Shown here in pieces: positions 2,231 through 42,007 of a stretch of 64,000 bases of DNA. Numbering within the stretch: the stretch's first letter is position 1; the number at the start of each line of letters is the position of its first letter. Below the pieces are notes generated by a model that did not search any database, was not told where the DNA came from, and saw only the letters and a program-made list of their open reading frames with translations. The position numbers were made by a program, and so were the translations under genes. The stretch is taken from positions 558,001 through 622,000 of the forward strand of contig NZ_JABBFX010000003.1 in the NCBI RefSeq assembly GCF_012927085.1, written 5' to 3'. The stretch is from Ramlibacter agri (GTDB lineage Bacteria > Pseudomonadota > Gammaproteobacteria > Burkholderiales > Burkholderiaceae_C).

Positions 2231-4009
2231 TCAGGCGGAGGCGGGCACCTCGCCTTCATCCCGGTACCACTCGGTGTCGGACAGCATCAGCTCGTGGTGG
2301 CCGCGTCCGGCGGGGATCATCGGGTAGCAGTTTTCCAGCTGCACCACGTGCACGTCCAGGAAGAACGGGCCGGGGTAGGCCAGGCAGGCGTCGAGCGCCG
2401 CGCCCAGTTCAGCGGGGTCGGTGACGCGCGCCGCGCCCCAGCCGAAGGCCTTGGCCAGCGCGACGAAGTCGGGCAGCGCGGCGTTCCAGCTGTGGCTGAT
2501 GCGGTTGCCGTGGTTCAACTGCTGCCACTGGCGCACCATGCCCATGTAGCTGTTGTTCGAGAGAACCAGCTTCACCGGCGTCTGGTGCTGTGTCGCGGTG
2601 GACAGCTCCTGGATGTTCATCAGCACCGAGGCGTCGCCGCTCACGCACACCACGGTCTTGTCCGGGTGCGCAACCTGCGCGCCGATGGCGGCGGGCAGGC
2701 CGTAGCCCATGGTGCCGGCGCCGCCGGAGGTGAGCCAGCGGCGCGGCTGCTCGAAGCGCAGGTACTGCGCGGACCACATCTGGTGCTGGCCGACGTCGGT
2801 GGCGACGATGGCGTCGCGGCCTTCCAGGCGCTGCTGCAGCTGCGACAGCAGGCGCTGCGGCAGGATCTGCGTTGCATGGGGCTCGAAGTCCAGGCAGCGG
2901 CTGGCGCGCCAGTGCGTGATGCGCTTCCACCAGGCGTCCAGGCGCGAAGCCTCCGGCTGCGCGGGCAGCGCTTCGAGCAGCTTGCGCAGCACGGCGCCGC
3001 AATCGCCCACCAATGCGGCGTCGACCTGGATCACCTTGTTGATGTTTTCCGGCGCGATGTCGATGTGGATCTTGCGGGCGCCGGGCGCGAACTCCGACAG
3101 CTTGCCGGTGATGCGGTCGTCGAAGCGGGCGCCGACGCAGACGATCAGGTCCGCGTGGTGCATCGCCAGGTTCGCCTCCACGGTGCCGTGCATGCCCAGC
3201 ATGCCCAGGAAGTGCGGGTCGGAGGCGGGCAGGGCGCCCAGGCCCATCAGGGTCAGCGTGGTCGGCAGGTTCCAGGCGCGGGCGAGCGCAGTGAAGGCGG
3301 CGCAAGCGTCGGGGCCCGAGTTGACCAGGCCACCGCCGCCGTAAAGCACAGGGCGGCGCGCGGTGCCCAGGAGGTCGGCGGCGCGCTGGAGGTCGTCCAG
3401 CGACAGCGTCGTCACCGCGGCGGCGGGCGCTTTTGGCGCCGGCGCCGGCGGCACGACCGCGACCCGTTCCAGTTGCACGTCCTTGGGCACGTCGATCAGC
3501 ACCGGGCCGGGGCGGCCCGTGGCTGCGATGTGCAGCGCCTTGCGCACGGCCTCTTCGACTTCGGCCGCCGAACGCACCTGGTGGTTCCACTTGGTCACCG
3601 GCCGCGACATGCCGAGGGCGTCGCATTCCTGGAAAGCCTGGGTGCCGATCACGCCGGTGGCCACCTGGCCGCTGATGCAGACGACCGGGATGGAATCGCT
3701 GATGGCGTCCAGCAAGCCGGTCATGGTGTTGCTGACGCCGGGACCGGAGGTCACCAGCACCACGCCGACGCGGCCGGTGGTGCGCGCATAGCCTTCGGCC
3801 GCATGCACGGCGGCCTGCTCGTGCCGCACCAGGATATGCCGCAGCTGCGGGCGGGCATGCAGCGCGTCGTACAGGGGCAGGGCGGCGCCGCCCGGGTAGC
3901 CGAAGATCGTGTCGATGCCACAGGCCAGCAGGGTGTCCAGCAGGATTTCGGCGCCGTTGGCTTCGAGCACGGCGGACGGGGCGGTGGTGGCGAGGGTCTC
4001 CATGGGCAT
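2231..4009 (-). CDS. acetolactate synthase large subunit-like, thiamine diphosphate enzyme
   Basis: The protein has about 592 residues and matches the acetohydroxyacid synthase catalytic-subunit fold: an N-terminal domain with the catalytic glutamate (VRHEQAAVHAAEGYA, near residue 60), a GTQAFQECDALG segment, and a C-terminal thiamine-binding domain (GDASVLMN...NNSYMG, near residue 455). The usual GDG triplet reads GDA here, a conservative oddity. No regulatory small subunit (ilvN) is next to it. The neighbours are instead an aryl-pyruvate ferredoxin oxidoreductase on the same strand and a divergent Lrp regulator. It may therefore be a catabolic paralogue rather than the main branched-chain biosynthetic enzyme (inference). 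ATGs at 4009 and 4003 are both possible. An upstream in-frame ATG at 4102 would put 31 non-conserved residues across the divergent promoter, so I reject it. Confidence 0.85.
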   Translation of the reverse strand: MPMETLATTAPSAVLEANGAEILLDTLLACGIDTIFGYPGGAALPLYDALHARPQLRHILVRHEQAAVHAAEGYARTTGRVGVVLVTSGPGVSNTMTGLLDAISDSIPVVCISGQVATGVIGTQAFQECDALGMSRPVTKWNHQVRSAAEVEEAVRKALHIAATGRPGPVLIDVPKDVQLERVAVVPPAPAPKAPAAAVTTLSLDDLQRAADLLGTARRPVLYGGGGLVNSGPDACAAFTALARAWNLPTTLTLMGLGALPASDPHFLGMLGMHGTVEANLAMHHADLIVCVGARFDDRITGKLSEFAPGARKIHIDIAPENINKVIQVDAALVGDCGAVLRKLLEALPAQPEASRLDAWWKRITHWRASRCLDFEPHATQILPQRLLSQLQQRLEGRDAIVATDVGQHQMWSAQYLRFEQPRRWLTSGGAGTMGYGLPAAIGAQVAHPDKTVVCVSGDASVLMNIQELSTATQHQTPVKLVLSNNSYMGMVRQWQQLNHGNRISHSWNAALPDFVALAKAFGWGAARVTDPAELGAALDACLAYPGPFFLDVHVVQLENCYPMIPAGRGHHELMLSDTEWYRDEGEVPASA

Positions 4010-4116: not shown

Positions 4117-4623
4117 ATGAAGCGCAACAAGCCCCTCCTGGACACGCCCGAAGAAACCCCGTCGGTCAGCTTCGACAAGTTCGACCTCGCCATCCTGCGC
4201 GAGCTGCTGGCGGACTCGCGCCGCACCCTGCAGGAGATCAGTGCCGCCGTAAAACTTTCGCCCACCACCTGCTGGGGGCGCATCAAGCGGCTGGAAAGCG
4301 AAGGCGTCATCAAGCAGTACACGGTGCTCGTGGACCGCGGCCGGCTGGGCTACAAGGACACGGTGCTGGTGCAGGTCACGCTGGAAAGCCACACCGACGA
4401 AACGCTGTACCAGTTCGGCCGCACGCTGGCGGCCATTCCCGAGGTGATGGAGGCCTACCTGGTCTCGGGCGATTACGACTATCTCATTCGCATCGCGGTG
4501 AAGGACACGCGCGACTACGAAAGGCTGCTGCGAGAAAAGTTGTACAAGATCCCCGGCATCCGCCACAGCAAGTCCAGCTTCGTGCTGCGGGTGTTGAAGG
4601 ACACGCTCGCGCCGCCGGTGTAA
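4117..4623 (+). CDS. Lrp/AsnC family transcriptional regulator
   Basis: This 168-residue protein has an N-terminal helix-turn-helix (FDLAILRELLADSRRTLQEI, then LSPTTCWGRIKRLESEGVI) and a C-terminal RAM ligand-binding domain (VPEVMEAYLVSGDYDYLIRI-like). Lrp/AsnC proteins are octameric or dimeric amino-acid-responsive regulators. It is divergent from the acetolactate-synthase-like and indolepyruvate oxidoreductase genes, which suggests it controls their expression in response to an amino acid (inference from arrangement). I chose the ATG at 4117. An in-frame ATG at 4024 would add 31 basic, unconserved residues and overlap the promoter region. No clear Shine-Dalgarno sequence precedes 4117. Confidence 0.88.
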   Translation: MKRNKPLLDTPEETPSVSFDKFDLAILRELLADSRRTLQEISAAVKLSPTTCWGRIKRLESEGVIKQYTVLVDRGRLGYKDTVLVQVTLESHTDETLYQFGRTLAAIPEVMEAYLVSGDYDYLIRIAVKDTRDYERLLREKLYKIPGIRHSKSSFVLRVLKDTLAPPV

Positions 4624-36672: not shown

Positions 36673-37314
36673 ATGATCACCATCCACCACCTGGGCCACT
36701 CCCAGTCCGAGCGCATCGTCTGGCTCTGCGAGGAGCTGGGCCTGCCTTACCGCCTGGTGCGCTACGAGCGCGATCCCGTCACGCGGCTGGCGCCGCCTGA
36801 ACTGCAGGCGCTGCACCCGATGGAGGCCGCCCCGGTCATCGAGGACGGCGAGTTGAAGCTCGCCGAGTCGGCGGCGATCGTGGAGTACCTCATCGCGGTG
36901 CACGGCAGCGGCCGGCTGAAGCCGGGCGTCGGCGACGCCGACTACGCCCAGTTCCTCTTCTGGTTCCACTTCGCCAATGGCAACCTGCAGCCGGCGATCG
37001 GCCGGCTGATGTTCTTCCAGCGCCTGCAGTTGCCGGCCGGCCATCCCGTGCAGGCGGCCGTCCAGGGGCGGCTGGACCGCTGCCTGCGCCTCGTGGAAAG
37101 CAGGCTGGGGCAGGCGCCGTATCTCGCCGGCTCCGAATTCACTGCTGCCGACGTGATGACGGTCGTGTCGTTCACCACGATGCGGCTGTTCCTGCCCATG
37201 GACCTGGGACCGTACGTGAACATCCGGGGCTGGCTGCGGCGGATCGGCGAGCGGCTTGCCTACCAGCGCGCGATGGCCGCCGGCGACCCGGACCTGCAGC
37301 CCATGCCTGGTTAG
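36673..37314 (+). CDS. glutathione S-transferase family protein
   Basis: The 213-residue protein has an N-terminal thioredoxin-like domain (MITIHHLGHSQSERIVWLCE, with Ser near residue 12 as the likely glutathione-contacting residue, and VIEDGELKLAESAAIVEYL, the conserved E-S-A motif) and a helical C-terminal domain (GSEFTAADVMTVVSF near residue 155). Conjugation substrates are unknown. It is followed by an AraC regulator gene 10 bases downstream on the same strand. Confidence 0.92.
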   Translation: MITIHHLGHSQSERIVWLCEELGLPYRLVRYERDPVTRLAPPELQALHPMEAAPVIEDGELKLAESAAIVEYLIAVHGSGRLKPGVGDADYAQFLFWFHFANGNLQPAIGRLMFFQRLQLPAGHPVQAAVQGRLDRCLRLVESRLGQAPYLAGSEFTAADVMTVVSFTTMRLFLPMDLGPYVNIRGWLRRIGERLAYQRAMAAGDPDLQPMPG

Positions 37315-37324
37315 ACTGGCCGGC

Positions 37325-38176
37325 GTGCGTCCCGCAACCGACCCCTCCGCGCTGGCCCGGGAACTCCACGCCCTGGCGGACGTGGGCATCGCGGCGCACA
37401 TCCTGCAATCGAGCAGCCTGCAGATCCTGCGCATGCGGGTGGAGCATCCGGTCCTGATCCTGGTCACCCAGGGCGTCAAGGAGGTCCGGCCGGAGCGGGG
37501 CGCCCCCGTGCGCGCGCGGCCGGGACAGGCGATCGCGCTGGCCGGCAACCAGGCGGTGGATTTCAAGAACACGGTTGCCGACGGCGCGAACTACGAAGCG
37601 CGGTGGCTGGTGTTCGATCCTGCGCTGGAGGGGGATGCGTACTGGCGGAGCAGGGCGAGCGCCTTGCAGGCTTCGTCGTCCCCGGCGCGCCTGCTCGAAC
37701 AGGTTCCCGATGCATTGACCGCCGCCTTCCAGCGTGCCTCGGAGGCGCTGGGGCCTGCTTCCTCGACGCCCGTTCCGATCGCGCGGCAACGCATGCTGGA
37801 GGTGATGCACTGGTTGCTGGAGCTGGGCATCGTGTTCCAGAGCCGGTCGCCCCAGTCGGCGGTCTCCGTCGCAGTCCGCGACCTCGTCGCGAACCGCCTG
37901 GACGCAGCATGGACCACCCAAGGCGTTGCCAGCGAGCTGGCCATGTCCGAGGCGACCTGCCGGCGCCGCCTGGCCGCGGAAGGAACCACGTTCGCGGAGT
38001 TGCTGGTGGACGCCAGGATGTCCGCGGCGCTGACCTTGCTGCAGGCGACCACGCGGCCCGTGTCCGACATCGCGCTGCAGGTCGGCTACGAGTCGCCCTC
38101 GCGGTTTGCGGTGCGGTTCCGGGAGAGGTTCGGGTTTGCGCCGACGCAGGTGCGGGGGCATGAGCGGAGTCGGTGA
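37325..38176 (+). CDS. AraC family transcriptional regulator
   Basis: The 283-residue regulator has a C-terminal AraC helix-turn-helix pair: TTQGVASELAMSEATCRRRL and PVSDIALQVGYESPSRFAVRFRERFG (key residues VGYES, F-x-R-x-F-x-x-x-F-G). The N-terminal half (residues 1-160) is an effector domain with APVRARPGQAIALAGNQAV. The start is a GTG at 37325, ten bases after the GST stop. The likely target is unknown; the GST gene is the obvious candidate. It converges with the homoserine dehydrogenase gene. Confidence 0.88.
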   Translation: MRPATDPSALARELHALADVGIAAHILQSSSLQILRMRVEHPVLILVTQGVKEVRPERGAPVRARPGQAIALAGNQAVDFKNTVADGANYEARWLVFDPALEGDAYWRSRASALQASSSPARLLEQVPDALTAAFQRASEALGPASSTPVPIARQRMLEVMHWLLELGIVFQSRSPQSAVSVAVRDLVANRLDAAWTTQGVASELAMSEATCRRRLAAEGTTFAELLVDARMSAALTLLQATTRPVSDIALQVGYESPSRFAVRFRERFGFAPTQVRGHERSR

Positions 38177-38223
38177 GCAGACATCGCCAAGGCAGTGAAC
38201 TTCACGCGCATGCCGTTCTCCAG

Positions 38224-39525
38224 CTATTCGAGTTGTTCCACCCGCAACCGCGTCAGCGCTTGCACACCTGGCATCCCTTCGATCTCCCGGAGGGCCGCCG
38301 CCATGGCGGATTCCAGGACTTCGCCGCTCAGGACGACGAAGGTGTTGCGGGATTGCGTTCCCTTGATCACCGGCACATGGTGCCGGCTGAGTGCCTCGAG
38401 CACCAAGACCGCCGAATCCGCATTCAGCAACTCCACGCGCAGGTAGTTGCGCAGGCGCGTGTCACCCAGGCTGGCGGCGCGCGGCTGCGGCACGCCTTCC
38501 CAGAAGCCCAAGGGCGGAACGCGCACCTGGCCGCCGCCGCGCACGGCGCGCGCCAGGTCCACCAGGTCGGCGACCACGGCCGACGCCGTCTCGCTCGATC
38601 CGGCGCCCGCGCCGTAGTACATGGTGACGCCCGCGGCGTTGCCCTTGACCATGATGCCGTTCATGCGCCCGTCGACGCGCGCCAGCAGGGACTCGCGCGG
38701 GACCAATGCGGGGTGTACGCGCAGCTGCAGTTCGTCGCCGCTGCGCCGCGCCACGGCCAGCAGCTTGACGGCGTAGCCCAAGCGCGCGGCGTGCAGGAAG
38801 TCCACGGCCTGCAGCGTGGCTATGCCTTCCACGTGCACGGCGTCCAGCCGCGGCGGGCCGCCGAAGGCCATGGCCGCCAGCAGCGCGAGCTTGTGTGCGG
38901 CGTCGCCGCCGCCCACGTCGAGCGCCGGGTCGGCCTCGGCATAACCCAGCGACTGGGCCGAGGCCAGGGCGTCGGCGTAGCTGCGTCCGGCCGCGGCCAT
39001 CTGGGTGAGGACGTAGTTGCTGGTGCCGTTGACGATGCCGGCGAGCCACTCGATCTCGTTGGCCACCAGCCCTTCGCGCAGCGCCTTCACGATGGGGATG
39101 CTCACGGCCACGGCCGCCTCGAAGCCCACCGTGACGCCGCGCGCGCTGGCGGCGGCGAAGATCTCCTCGCCATGCATCGCCAGCAGCGCCTTGTTGGCGG
39201 TGACCACGTGCTTGCCCTCGGCGATGGCGGCCAGCACGCAGTCACGCGCGTCGGTGGTGCCGCCGATGGCTTCGATGACGACGTCCACGCCCGGGTGGCG
39301 CGCCACCTGCATCGGGTCCGTCAGCACCTCGATGCCGTCCTCCATGGCCGCGCGTGCGCGCGAGGCGTTGCGGGTGGCCACCACGGCGAGTTCGATGGCG
39401 CAGCCGGCGCGCGCCCGGATGGTGTCGCGATTGGCCGCGAGCACGCCGTGGGTGCCGGAGCCGACCACGCCGAAGCCCAGCAAGCCGGCACGCAGTGCGG
39501 GCGGAGGGGCGAGAGGTGCTTGCAT
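38224..39525 (-). CDS. hom: homoserine dehydrogenase
   Basis: The 433-residue enzyme reduces aspartate semialdehyde to homoserine, the branch point to threonine, isoleucine and methionine. NAD(P) motif GLLGFGVVGSGTHGVL is near residue 15, catalytic lysine region HVVTANKALLAMHGEE near 115, signature GIVNGTSNYVLTQM near 163, and a C-terminal ACT-type effector domain from about residue 345. It stands alone: no threonine synthase gene follows, and the next gene is convergent. The leader upstream (39526-39700) has a Thr/Ile/Met-rich leader peptide and two hairpins, one enclosing the ribosome binding site. Start ATG 39525, after AGGAGAAAACGGAA. Confidence 0.95.
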   Translation of the reverse strand: MQAPLAPPPALRAGLLGFGVVGSGTHGVLAANRDTIRARAGCAIELAVVATRNASRARAAMEDGIEVLTDPMQVARHPGVDVVIEAIGGTTDARDCVLAAIAEGKHVVTANKALLAMHGEEIFAAASARGVTVGFEAAVAVSIPIVKALREGLVANEIEWLAGIVNGTSNYVLTQMAAAGRSYADALASAQSLGYAEADPALDVGGGDAAHKLALLAAMAFGGPPRLDAVHVEGIATLQAVDFLHAARLGYAVKLLAVARRSGDELQLRVHPALVPRESLLARVDGRMNGIMVKGNAAGVTMYYGAGAGSSETASAVVADLVDLARAVRGGGQVRVPPLGFWEGVPQPRAASLGDTRLRNYLRVELLNADSAVLVLEALSRHHVPVIKGTQSRNTFVVLSGEVLESAMAAALREIEGMPGVQALTRLRVEQLE

Positions 39526-39528
39526 TTC

Positions 39529-39569
39529 CGTTTTCTCCTGTCTGCCTCGCGGGGGAGGGGGAGAAAACG
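39529..39569 (-). promoter_or_regulatory. hairpin enclosing the hom ribosome binding site
   Basis: CGTTTTCTCC (39569-39560) is perfectly complementary to GGAGAAAACG (39538-39529), separated by 21 bases. The 3' arm contains GGAGA, the Shine-Dalgarno of hom, 4-8 bases before its ATG at 39525. When formed, the hairpin would hide the site. The 5' arm contains the TTTT of the upstream hairpin, so one strand of RNA takes part in both signals. Confidence 0.65.
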
Positions 39570-39597
39570 CTGCAACCCCGGCCGCTTGGCGGGGTTG
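39564..39597 (-). terminator. terminator-like hairpin in the hom leader
   Basis: CAACCCCG (39597-39590) and CGGGGTTG (39580-39573) pair perfectly over 8 bp with a 9-base loop. A run of four T follows at 39567-39564, after six bases. The U-tract is shorter and further away than in a standard intrinsic terminator, so it may be a weak or pause-assisted terminator. Confidence 0.4.
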
Positions 39598-39610
39598 GGT
39601 GATGAGTGCG

Positions 39611-39679
39611 CTAACTGCGATGCACGACCACCTCGCCCCGGGAGGGCGTGGTAATCATGGTGATCGTCATGATGCTCAT
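39611..39679 (-). CDS. candidate hom leader peptide, Thr/Ile/Met rich
   Basis: A 22-codon ORF starts at 39679 and ends with TAG at 39611. Its first eleven residues, MSIMTITMITT, include four Thr, three Ile and three Met, the end products of the homoserine pathway, as in the E. coli thr leader where Thr and Ile codons set pausing. The start is about 16 bases from the -10 element, so translation may begin near the RNA 5' end; no clear Shine-Dalgarno precedes it. The remaining codons (PSRGEVVVHRS) lie in the first hairpin. Confidence 0.6.
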   Translation of the reverse strand: MSIMTITMITTPSRGEVVVHRS

Positions 39680-39716
39680 GGAACGCACAGGCCCACTATA
39701 GCAGGACGGCGCCCGG

Positions 39717-39968
39717 TCAGTCTGTCGTGCCGAAAGCCACGTAAAGGAGGGCCTCCCCCTCCAGCCTCGGGCCGGCCAGGCCCGCGAAGCGCGGAGCGCC
39801 CTGCAGCGGCCCGGGCAGGTTCGCGTCGATCAACGAGCCCAGGTACTCATAGCCCATCGCGTCGAAGGTGTCTTCGATGTCGCTGGCCGGGCCGACGGTG
39901 GTGACGACCTGGCCATTGATCTTGCGCAGCAGAAGGAACGCCTGGGGCGCGGTTGCGTTCGATGACAT
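39717..39968 (-). CDS. small protein of unknown function upstream of hom
   Basis: The 83-residue protein (SNATAPQAFLLLRKINGQVV at the start, then DIEDTFDAMGYEYLGSLIDA) has no signal peptide or membrane segment. No family is recognised. It stops 16 bases before the hom promoter -10, so the -35 lies inside or close to its 3' end. Codon use is like the neighbours. It could be co-transcribed with hom through the leader. Confidence 0.55.
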   Translation of the reverse strand: MSSNATAPQAFLLLRKINGQVVTTVGPASDIEDTFDAMGYEYLGSLIDANLPGPLQGAPRFAGLAGPRLEGEALLYVAFGTTD

Positions 39969-40086
39969 GACGGGGTTGGGGACGGAGCGTCATCGACTTT
40001 AGATGTGGTGCGGAAGTTGCGCACCCCCTGAACAGAGGGGGGCGGGGCTGACAGGAATCTGTCACTGCGCCAGCCAGGGGCCATGG

Positions 40087-40905
40087 CTATTCGTAGCGTT
40101 GCAAGGCCTGCGCGCTCTCTTTCCAGCCTTCGCGAAGGGCGTATTGCAAGGGCGTTTCGCCTTCGTCGTTGCACGCATGCGGATCGGCGCCGGCTTCGAC
40201 CAGCACGGCGATGTTCGCCGTCGAGCGGTCCGCGCAAGCCGCGCGGTGCAGCACCGTGAGGCCGCCGCTGCGCCGCGCCATCTCCTCGGGGAACTCGCGG
40301 ATGAACGCGCGAAGGATGCAAGGCGAGCGGGTTCGCAGGGCGAAAAAAAATGCTTCGTCCACGTCCGGCGCGCCGGGTTTCCAGGGCAATGCTTTCAGCT
40401 GGCGCACGGTCGTGAGTGCCGATTCGTCGGTCTCGTCAGGAATTCGCCCGCGCCATGTGTCGGCGAAGCTGGCGAGCGCATCGCGCGGCCAGAGTGGACG
40501 GTTGCGTGCCGCGGCGAAGAGACCCGGGTGCCTTGCGATCGCTTCGTCGCGCCAGGTCTTGTGCCGCAGCGCACGTGCTACCAGCTCGATGCCCAACTGG
40601 GCCTCGTGGCCGTGGTGCCACCGCGCCAGGGTATCGAAGAGGAACAGCGCATCTTCGCGGGCCAGCGGCGATTCGGCCAGCACCAGGAGCAGGCGGTGCC
40701 GCTCCCGGTGATGCTCCTTGGGCCGCAAACCGAGCCGCGTCAGGTCGCCGTCCAGGGCCCGGAGGCAGTCCACGAGCCTGGCAGGCGCGGCTTCCAGCCC
40801 GCTGGGGGGCGCAAAGCTCGCCAGCGCGCCCGCGTGCTTCGCGGCCTCCGCCAGTGCGCGGGTGAACCGGGCCCGGAATTCAGCGGATTGGATGTCGGCG
40901 TCCAT
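40087..40905 (-). CDS. ankyrin-repeat protein
   Basis: The 272-residue protein has a helical N-terminal part and two to three ankyrin repeats at the C-terminus: GLTVLHRAACADRSTANIAVLVEAGADPH (key motif TxLHxAA and EAGADP) and NDEGETPLQYALREGWKESAQ. These bind proteins. A potential upstream helical domain (FARFTRALAEAAKHAG) has no recognised family. It ends a five-base gap from the cysteine-less glutaredoxin-like gene on the same strand, so the two may be co-transcribed. Confidence 0.8.
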   Translation of the reverse strand: MDADIQSAEFRARFTRALAEAAKHAGALASFAPPSGLEAAPARLVDCLRALDGDLTRLGLRPKEHHRERHRLLLVLAESPLAREDALFLFDTLARWHHGHEAQLGIELVARALRHKTWRDEAIARHPGLFAAARNRPLWPRDALASFADTWRGRIPDETDESALTTVRQLKALPWKPGAPDVDEAFFFALRTRSPCILRAFIREFPEEMARRSGGLTVLHRAACADRSTANIAVLVEAGADPHACNDEGETPLQYALREGWKESAQALQRYE

Positions 40906-40909
40906 GGCG

Positions 40910-41275
40910 TCAGTGCAGCATGGACTTCAATTCGCCGCTGGCTATGAGTGCCTGCAGTTCGCTCGATCCGCCGACCAGGACGCCTTTGACGAAAACCATG
41001 GGGAAGGTCGGCCAGCCGGTCCACATCTTCAAGGCGCTGCGCGGACGCCACATCTTGAAGTAGCTGCCGTACTCGAGATACTTGAACGGCTGCCCGATGG
41101 CATCGAGTGCCTTGCGCGCCTTGGCAGGAAACGGGTTCTGCTTCATCCCGACCACCAGGACGTCGTTGGCGGCCGCTGCCGCCTTGACTTCATCGACGAT
41201 GCCGTGGTTCCAGCCGGCGATCTTCGCGCGGATGGCGGCATGGATGCTGGATTCATCGAGGATCGGGCGCGGCAT
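40910..41275 (-). CDS. glutaredoxin-like protein lacking the active-site cysteine
   Basis: The 121-residue protein has a glutaredoxin fold: DVLVVGMKQNPFPAKARKAL near residue 45, with the cis-proline motif GWPTFPMVFVKGVLVGG near 88-104 (Thr-Phe-Pro, Gly-Gly). In the position of the monothiol or dithiol cysteine (usually CGFS or CPYC after P-x-F) this protein has Pro-Ala. It contains no cysteine at all in the segment, so it cannot perform thiol exchange. It may act as a structural or iron-sulfur-related binding protein. The ATG at 41275 follows AAGGAACCACG; one at 41302 has no such site. Confidence 0.8.
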   Translation of the reverse strand: MPRPILDESSIHAAIRAKIAGWNHGIVDEVKAAAAANDVLVVGMKQNPFPAKARKALDAIGQPFKYLEYGSYFKMWRPRSALKMWTGWPTFPMVFVKGVLVGGSSELQALIASGELKSMLH

Positions 41276-41396
41276 CGTGGTTCCTTGCGAGTGGAGTGAC
41301 ACGGTAGCATGGGAACATGGAAAGCTGTCCAGGGGGCTGGTACATCGTCAACCGCGGGGCGCGGCCTACATCGCGCTACACCGCTGAGGCAGTCGG

Positions 41397-41425
41397 TTGA
41401 CGTCACTACACCGTGTATATACACT
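41397..41425 (+). promoter_or_regulatory. brnTA promoter with palindromic operator
   Basis: TTGACG (41397-41402) is a near-consensus -35, with TACACT (41420-41425) 17 bases downstream as -10. GTGTATATACAC (41413-41424) is a perfect 12-base palindrome covering the -10. BrnT-BrnA complexes are known to repress their own operon, and this palindrome is the natural site. The elements CTACACCG and CTGAGGC also occur just upstream at 41376-41390 and again at 41406-41430. Confidence 0.65.
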
Positions 41426-41431
41426 GAGGCG

Positions 41432-41707
41432 ATGGGGTTCACCTGGTCCGAGGCAAAGCGCGCGGCGAACGTCAAGGCACATGGGCTCGACTTTGTTGAT
41501 GCACTTTTGGTGTTTGAGGGCGTGACTTTCACATTCGAAGACGATCGGTTCTCCTACGGTGAGCAGCGCTTTGTGACTCTGGGCCTGCTTGCCGGCATTC
41601 CCGTCTCAGTCGTTCATACGGAGAGTGAAAGTGAAATCCGCATCATCTCGTTCCGACAAGCCACAAAGCGCGAAGCGCAAATCTACTTCAGTGAAATCCA
41701 AGACTGA
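41432..41707 (+). CDS. brnT: BrnT family toxin (RNase) of a type II toxin-antitoxin system
   Basis: The 91-residue toxin begins MGFTWSEAKRAANVKAHGLD, with the BrnT core: FEDDRFSYGEQRFVTLGLL near residue 34, VVHTESESEIRIISFRQATKREAQIYF near residues 56-82 (the R/RxATKREx motif). BrnT is an RNase-like toxin related to RelE. The start is directly beyond a palindromic operator. It overlaps brnA by 77 bases, a normal arrangement for this pair. GC content falls here compared with surroundings. Confidence 0.92.
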   Translation: MGFTWSEAKRAANVKAHGLDFVDALLVFEGVTFTFEDDRFSYGEQRFVTLGLLAGIPVSVVHTESESEIRIISFRQATKREAQIYFSEIQD

Positions 41708-41939
41708 TTGGGACCGCCTGAAGGCTGGCAAGCCCTCTACGACCGCCGAGCATCCCGAGGCGGACGTCAAGCACATCGTTCGCGGAGTAGTGAGGCGTGG
41801 GCTGCAGCCTCTTCCCTCCAAGGCATCAATCTCATTGCGCGTAGACCAGGACGTCCTAGAGTGGTTCAAGGCGCAAGGGCCAGGCTACCAAACGCGCATC
41901 AACAGTGTGTTGAGGGCGTTTCGGGACGCATCGGTATAG
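41631..41939 (+). CDS. brnA: BrnA family antitoxin
   Basis: The about 102-residue antitoxin has a basic, disordered N-terminus (KSASSRSDKPQSAKRK) and a C-terminal BrnA ribbon-helix-helix domain: SISLRVDQDVLEWFKAQGPG near residue 65 and RINSVLRAFRDA. BrnA binds BrnT and the operator. No ATG suits; the GTG at 41631 follows GGAGAG (41620-41625), and a GTG at 41625 is also in frame. It overlaps the toxin gene by 77 bases. Confidence 0.88.
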   Translation: MKSASSRSDKPQSAKRKSTSVKSKTDWDRLKAGKPSTTAEHPEADVKHIVRGVVRRGLQPLPSKASISLRVDQDVLEWFKAQGPGYQTRINSVLRAFRDASV

Positions 41940-42007
41940 CAGGTCGGTCGACTCGGACACGTTGGAGCGCATCGCCACCGTCGCCGAATCCATTCCAAAA
42001 TCAGGCC

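Follow-up and report, generated by a model that had tools for sequence, protein, structure and literature searches.

Is the leader of a homoserine dehydrogenase gene (hom) of Ramlibacter agri an attenuator, and does it act on transcription, on translation or on both? The gene lies on the minus strand of the 64,000-nucleotide stretch that we analysed (positions 558,001 to 622,000 of contig NZ_JABBFX010000003.1; hereafter the window). A first-pass annotation had placed in front of it a Thr/Ile/Met-rich open reading frame (ORF), an internal hairpin, a second hairpin resembling a terminator and a third, of 10 bp without mismatch, that holds the Shine-Dalgarno sequence (SD); all four are indeed present on that strand. 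From its sequence, the leader looks like a real sensor of amino-acid supply: we think it fairly probable that it is a ribosome-mediated attenuator responding to Thr and Ile, perhaps also to Met, with an extra arm that hides the ribosome-binding site (RBS) of the gene. This reading draws on the anatomy, conservation and co-variation described below, from which we infer the stalling of the ribosome, the order of refolding, the release of the SD and the effector amino acids.

A Thr/Ile/Met-rich leader ahead of a second hom gene

The 22-codon ATG frame first noticed (MSIMTITMITTPSRGEVVVHRS, 39679-39611) is there, but a conserved in-frame GTG (39688-39686), at which the leader probably starts, lengthens the ORF to 25 codons. 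The window leader contains four Thr, three Ile and three internal Met. Leaders of this kind stand at all 41 classified hom2-type loci, that is, at 40 analysed loci that were collected because the leader had been seen and at L005, added afterwards, where the leader core sits 200 nt upstream of the gene; none was found upstream of 33 loci of the paralogue hom1 used as controls. The best 12-codon run holds 6-10 Thr/Ile/Met codons in the 40 analysed leaders and at most 5 in the controls, for which every ATG or GTG ORF between 8 and 60 codons long was considered over 450 nt of upstream sequence. The Thr/Ile/Met-rich leader is thus conserved in relatives; its absence there would have refuted the attenuator proposal. 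Met codons make up 115 of the 433 Thr/Ile/Met codons of the 40 leaders; since the leaders of L090 and L104 are without internal Met, its place among the sensed amino acids stays a "perhaps". The MTMIT stretch of the leader is lacZ-alpha-like, but since relatives have the leader as well, a vector origin was rejected.

The analysed loci fall into two layouts. Group A comprises eight loci with the layout of the window (L001, L084, L085, L089, L088, L086, L090 and L104), and group B the other 32, whose leader peptides are 31-59 residues long, with a variable N-terminal part and a C-terminal MITTITTAAT or variants of it. GTGCG marks the leader start in six of the eight group-A loci and ATGCG stands at the same place in the remaining two. 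In the window TATAGT ends 6 nt ahead of the GTG, and in those six loci a -10-like box lies exactly 6 nt before it; over the 40 loci the distance from hexamer to leader start is 6-10 nt. A hexamer with at least four of six matches to TATAAT occurs 3-12 nt before the start in 39 of the 40, compared with 4% at random upstream positions, the group-B starts having been picked partly with the -10 pattern in view. Because the -10 box of the window is only 6 nt from the GTG, the mRNA of the leader peptide is probably leaderless or nearly so, and a transcription start downstream of 39611 would be hard to square with the conservation of the box. An 83-aa ORF without Pfam or NCBIfam match (39717-39968, minus strand) ends 16 nt before the -10 box.

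Both Pfam and NCBIfam assign the downstream gene as a homoserine dehydrogenase, as had been annotated, but it is the accessory, stand-alone, monocistronic second hom ("hom2") of a 7.2-Mb genome in 13 contigs, which elsewhere carries another full-length copy (hom1, L002; 47% identical to hom2). Two hom genes are present in 26 of the 27 genomes examined (one in G095), and at E<=1e-120 hom2 has matches in 4 of the 60 genomes from the genus of the window, namely the genome it comes from and three more at 57-77% identity. A tree was built from 71 proteins, those of 38 of the 40 leader-bearing loci (L086 and L092 were left out as short) and of the 33 hom1 controls. A branch supported at 100/100 separates the hom1 proteins from all the leader-bearing homs; another (100/98) sets off group A, and group B requires two changes. 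Among 31 further loci, 29 were closest to hom1 and L005 to hom2, and L144 yielded no usable protein. In a chosen subset, the ACT domain of Pfam (PF01842) was detected in 11 of 11 Hom1 and 0 of 11 Hom2 proteins. NF004976 aligns up to residue 431 of 433 in Hom2, and as the C-terminal part is of similar length, the ACT domain may be diverged rather than absent. This suggests a division of labour between the paralogues: Hom1 carries the ACT domain but its gene lacks the leader, whereas hom2 has the leader and its product shows no detectable ACT domain; attenuation may, we suggest, compensate for lost feedback inhibition of Hom2. Inspection by eye suggests the end of an aminotransferase-like frame upstream of several hom1 genes. 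The hom2 of L086 carries an in-frame TAG, and in L092 the ATG behind the SD opens a 25-aa frame out of the hom frame; each is a pseudogene or a sequence error.

Table 1. Features of the hom2 leader, in window coordinates
Feature	Position	Strand	Basis or remark
-10 box TATAGT, with TGC in front	39695..39700	-	at least 4/6 TATAAT matches 3-12 nt before leader start in 39/40 loci
Leader ORF, 25 codons from GTG (VRSMSIMTITMITTPSRGEVVVHRS)	39611..39688	-	conserved GTGCG/ATGCG start
Segment 1, within the Thr/Ile/Met codons	39643..39659	-	pairs with segment 2
Segment 2	39623..39640	-	1:2 in the full fold; 2:3 if segment 1 is withheld
Segment 3, terminator 5' arm and antiterminator 3' arm	39588..39603	-	folding
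Segment 4, terminator 3' arm	39573..39583	-	folding; 3:4 swap test
TTTT tract, 5 nt past the stem, common to segment 5	39564..39567	-	sequence; consensus scan
Segment 5, anti-SD arm CGTTTTCTCC	39560..39569	-	folding; swap test; pair-type changes
Segment 6, GGAGAAAACG, with hom SD GGAG (39538-39535)	39529..39538	-	folding; swap test; pair-type changes
hom2, homoserine dehydrogenase without Pfam-detectable ACT domain	38224..39525	-	Pfam; NCBIfam; off the hom1 side of the tree

Conserved pairings in two leader layouts

On folding, the internal hairpin of the window reaches 16 bp (39659-39643 with 39639-39623); the terminator-like hairpin pairs 39597-39588 with 39583-39573 around one bulge, and the perfect 10-bp hairpin (CGTTTTCTCC/GGAGAAAACG) pairs 39569-39560 with 39538-39529, with the GGAG of the SD in its 3' arm. 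These structures go beyond chance: the folding energy of the complete leader is -72.8 kcal/mol, compared with -52.8 +/- 4.2 for 200 dinucleotide shuffles (z -4.78, 0/200 as good), and for 39603-39526 taken separately z is -3.45, again with 0/200 dinucleotide shuffles folding as well. With segment 1 withheld and the RNA ending after segment 3, the window forms 2:3 at -22.2 kcal/mol, and 2:3 is the predicted fold in 8/8 group-A loci under the same conditions. By folding, antiterminator and terminator are mutually exclusive, and the Thr/Ile/Met codons lie in the 5' segment.

Pairing was compared between loci in a swap test, in which each segment is folded with its own partner and with the partners of other loci in 5000 permutations, the figure given being the number of permutations as good. 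In group A the SD helix (5:6) stands out: own partners give -19.5 kcal/mol, other loci's partners -16.6 and shuffles -10.3, with 0/5000 permutations as good. The counts for 1:2, 3:4 and 4:5 are 94, 266 and 238, and those for control pairings 951, 561, 1998, 3106 and 4530. A stem around CTCC/GGAG is found in 8/8 loci, with a core mismatch in L104 and L084, and at positions -4, 5 and 6 (paired in 6, 4 and 7 of the 8) the type of pair varies through changes on both sides, the helix being scored from hand-set anchors, with the SDs of L086, L090 and L104 out of register in the alignment. The SD pairing is therefore conserved in all eight loci and co-varies among them. The terminator-like stem is likewise present in 8/8.

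In group B the order is permuted: segment 1 (at the ORF end), 2, 3, the anti-SD arm, terminator arms 4 and 5, and the SD. Thirteen representatives below 80% identity gave swap counts of 5 (1:2), 38 (2:3), 19 (3:5), 0 (4:5, the terminator) and 0 (anti-SD:SD) in 5000; control pairings in the same set gave 4248 (3:4), 1234 (3:SD), 3130 (1:5) and 1546 (anti-SD:5). In the aligned columns of 25 sequences, 88.4% of the 3:5 cells are paired and eight are changed on both sides, 0/500 shuffles reaching either value; 4:5 is paired at 93.7% and 1:2 at 91.6%, each with 1/500 shuffles as high. For 2:3, paired at 94.4%, there are no both-side changes and 500/500 shuffles are as high. An RNAalifold consensus of group B was set aside, ON and OFF helices being mixed in it. 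No 3:5-type antiterminator was found in group A when sought by eye.

A covariance model made from 25 group-B leaders and ending just past the terminator, hence without the SD, matches 46 of 399 family genomes, with one copy in each, mostly at hom2. It finds no match in the window's genome, the window leader included, and groups A and B are therefore linked by the gene and by the kind of leader rather than by the model. Fourteen of the 46 genomes were new to the analysis. In ten of them hom2 follows the leader (nearest hom2, 66.7-80.0%), G200/L241 among these being the L005 contig. The 13 later leaders gave swap counts of 2 (3:5), 0 (4:5, the terminator), 15 (anti-SD:SD), 37 (2:3) and 106 (1:2) of 5000, with controls at 4413 (3:SD), 179 (1:5) and 1841 (anti-SD:5). 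For eight representatives of them below 85% the counts were 16 (3:5), 0 (4:5), 961 (2:3) and 284 (1:2), with controls at 4556 (3:SD), 421 (1:5) and 2026 (anti-SD:5). A weak match, L238 (32.6 bits), was taken as false. In L231-L233, all of one genus (g73), the leader is present, but the 2.0-2.5 kb of downstream sequence examined contain no hom match (tblastn, 1e-10); a 114-aa ORF with no Pfam match begins at the expected place in L233, and L230, of the same genus, has hom2.

What the leader may control

In the reading that we favour, transcription would begin at or beside the leader start codon, as the spacing of the -10 box suggests, and a ribosome would translate the Thr/Ile/Met-rich peptide. 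Stalling on the codons of segment 1 would allow 2:3 to pair, which would hold back or preclude the terminator 3:4 and let RNA polymerase continue; without a stall, 1:2 and 3:4 would form and transcription would be stopped or reduced. In the full-length RNA, the U tract and anti-SD arm (segment 5) would pair with the SD (segment 6), leaving escaping transcripts poorly translated, and this arm would set at least a low basal translation. In some relatives, pairing of terminator arm 4 with segment 5 may open the SD helix. When the terminator is forbidden, 4:5 forms and 5:6 is lost in L084, L090 and L104; in L089 5:6 is also lost, but arm 4 pairs further downstream, touching the SD. The unpaired fraction of the SD (free/terminator forbidden) goes from 0.47 to 0.88 in L084, from 0.01 to 0.62 in L089 and from 0.00 to 0.34 in L090. 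A few relatives could thus plausibly couple release of the SD to read-through. The proposed combined switch is only partly supported: comparison of the loci supports an attenuator with a conserved RBS-hiding helix, but the folding of the window does not predict that read-through releases the SD.

Several results weigh against attenuation as just described. The TTTT (39567-39564), which is shared with the 5' arm of the SD hairpin as first claimed, is displaced, starting 5 nt past the terminator stem, so that the transcription arm is uncertain in the window, where a consensus scan matched no full sigma-70 promoter. In group A, limited to eight related loci, 2:3 shows no own-partner advantage (2742/5000), and when an 18-nt segment 1 is added, only the window, L085 and L086 go over to 1:2, five of the eight staying in 2:3. 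With the terminator forbidden, 5:6 is retained in the window, L085, L086 and L088; the SD is then unpaired at 0.00/0.00 (free/forbidden) in the window and at most 0.04 in the other three, and it is unchanged in L104 (0.51/0.51). The anti-SD:SD columns of group B (32 sequences, in an alignment hampered by bulges and gaps) are 72.1% paired and do not beat shuffles (116/500 as high), and the same pairing is weaker in the eight later representatives (81/5000). Finally, the low counts of the 1:5 control among the later leaders (179, 421) mean that relatedness contributes to the swap results.

A more ambitious proposal, that of a conserved concerted attenuator, is one that we now regard as doubtful. 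It holds that a single leader ribosome decides on both terminator and RBS by strand displacement, in two permuted layouts, from a leaderless message, as a sensor replacing the lost ACT feedback of Hom2. Group A would be OFF with 1:2, 3:4 and 5:6 and ON with 2:3, 4:5 and an open SD; group B would be OFF with 2:3, 4:5 and anti-SD:SD and ON with 1:2 and 3:5, the anti-SD arm being looped off. The logic of group B would be inverted, with 1:2 as the ON helix, since segment 1 comes only after the Thr/Ile codons: stalling on the Thr/Ile run would leave 1:2 free, and a ribosome at the stop codon would cover segment 1. Group B would therefore, by our inference, be turned ON by stalling with a pairing order opposite to that of trp. 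The ON (1:2 + 3:5) and OFF (2:3 + 4:5 + anti-SD:SD) folds are of similar energy (for example L111, -52.8/-51.4; L095, -48.3/-53.8), and the ON fold contains 3:5 in eight of ten folded group-B loci (it is absent in L106 and L192). When ON was forced in 45 leaders (32 + 13 later), at least five expected 3:5 pairs appeared in 38 and anti-SD:SD pairing dropped by >0.3 in 38 (mean 0.91 to 0.13). Against the proposal, the mean unpaired fraction of the SD over the 45 is 0.08 OFF and 0.21 ON, rising by >0.2 in 10/45 and falling in 8/45; the SD is freed only slightly because it finds a new partner in the U-tract stretch that follows the terminator and precedes the SD (mean 0.40). This extensive re-pairing in the ON folds led us to lower our estimate from somewhat short of even to its present level.

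We are likewise doubtful of the possibility that, in the lineage of the window, the attenuator is mainly translational, the terminator having decayed and the RBS helix doing the regulation. The displaced TTTT fits this, as does the consensus scan, which flags just a different 5-pair stem (39585-39572) near that tract; the 11-nt count at the stem end also finds only 3-5 T in L001, L084, L089, L099, L101 and L115. Yet the stem is kept throughout group A, L086, L090 and L104 have 7 T (the U tract adjoining the terminator is good in these three and in most of group B), and folding offers no route by which the SD helix of the window might be opened.

We consider it unlikely that the leader is an ordinary thr-type transcription attenuator whose SD hairpin serves no function and results simply from a U tract lying opposite a purine-rich SD (TTTTCTCC versus GGAGAAAA). 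In favour of this, the helix core is nearly invariant and in part dictated by U tract and SD, the SD is a possible partner of the U tract in group-B folds as well and, to our knowledge, the E. coli thr leader has no such SD hairpin. The pairing extends past the core, however, with the both-side changes and the 0/5000 permutations given above; in group B the main anti-SD arm precedes the terminator and still favours its own partner, and L099 and L197 retain the SD helix despite poor U tracts.

It is very improbable that the leader peptide regulates in trans rather than through codon-dependent stalling: peTrpL does act in trans (PMC7298713), and the length of the group-B peptides and their variable N-terminal part would allow it, but what is conserved is the Thr/Ile run and the helix nucleotides. 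Accidental folding of a GC-rich leader, whose GC content favours stems, hardly comes into question given the z of the leader, the co-variation in both groups and the single copy per genome, mostly at hom2, found by the covariance model.

The attenuator that we favour, with its RBS-hiding arm, would then represent a candidate family in Comamonadaceae and relatives, in which sensor codons, terminator and RBS arm all appear to be under visible selection.

Comparison with known leaders

The E. coli thr attenuator (RF00506) is like the hom2 leader in its Thr/Ile leader peptide, its competing hairpins and the homoserine dehydrogenase downstream; unlike hom2, thrA is a fused kinase/dehydrogenase in an operon. 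RF00506 recovers the control, E. coli thrL, at 122 bits but scores nothing at E<=1 across window positions 37000-42000 or in the leaders of hom2 at 15 loci. No leader family emerged when Rfam was searched with the region in the window and with 15 relatives; an rnk_pseudo hit below threshold (E 0.48), lying over the L093 leader, was treated as chance; outside the hom2 leader, L104 has a manganese (yybP-ykoY) riboswitch (3648-3830, plus strand; 75 bits). The his attenuator of E. coli and Salmonella consists of six segments and resembles the hom2 leader in alternating pairings chained along the RNA, but its codons are for His. Translational control of the full his mRNA has not been reported (PMC3896937). 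T-boxes, in turn, bind tRNA.

Two alternative folds, one of which sequesters the SD of a gene for amino-acid supply, are described for the hisD 5' untranslated region of Corynebacterium glutamicum, the actinobacterial LEU element and ileS T-boxes (PMC3896937, PMC1262725). Unlike hom2, hisD has no His leader ORF, and in LEU the Leu codon run itself pairs with the SD. A leader peptide at the very 5' end is described for Sinorhizobium meliloti rnTrpL, which begins with ATG (PMC7298713); trpL has 14 aa with Trp codons, and its leaderless start is reported there, whereas that of the hom2 leader is only predicted. Two further sources record a Thr_leader at Shewanella thrA (PMC2659441) and an upstream ORF at Corynebacterium ilvB-II (PMC10272879). 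Among the matches listed from the open-licence PMC literature, no title describes a hom attenuator in betaproteobacteria.

Naville and Gautheret (2010; PMC2965389) propose bifunctional terminators, in which the terminator hairpin sequesters the RBS, concerted attenuation being described as not yet demonstrated. The hom2 leader differs from these in being a conserved, predicted candidate with a codon sensor. Its sequence features favour a leader-peptide attenuator of a variant form, set apart by the conserved helix over the RBS, and concerted attenuation of transcription and translation by one leader, as proposed in 2010, gains in these loci conserved and testable natural candidates.
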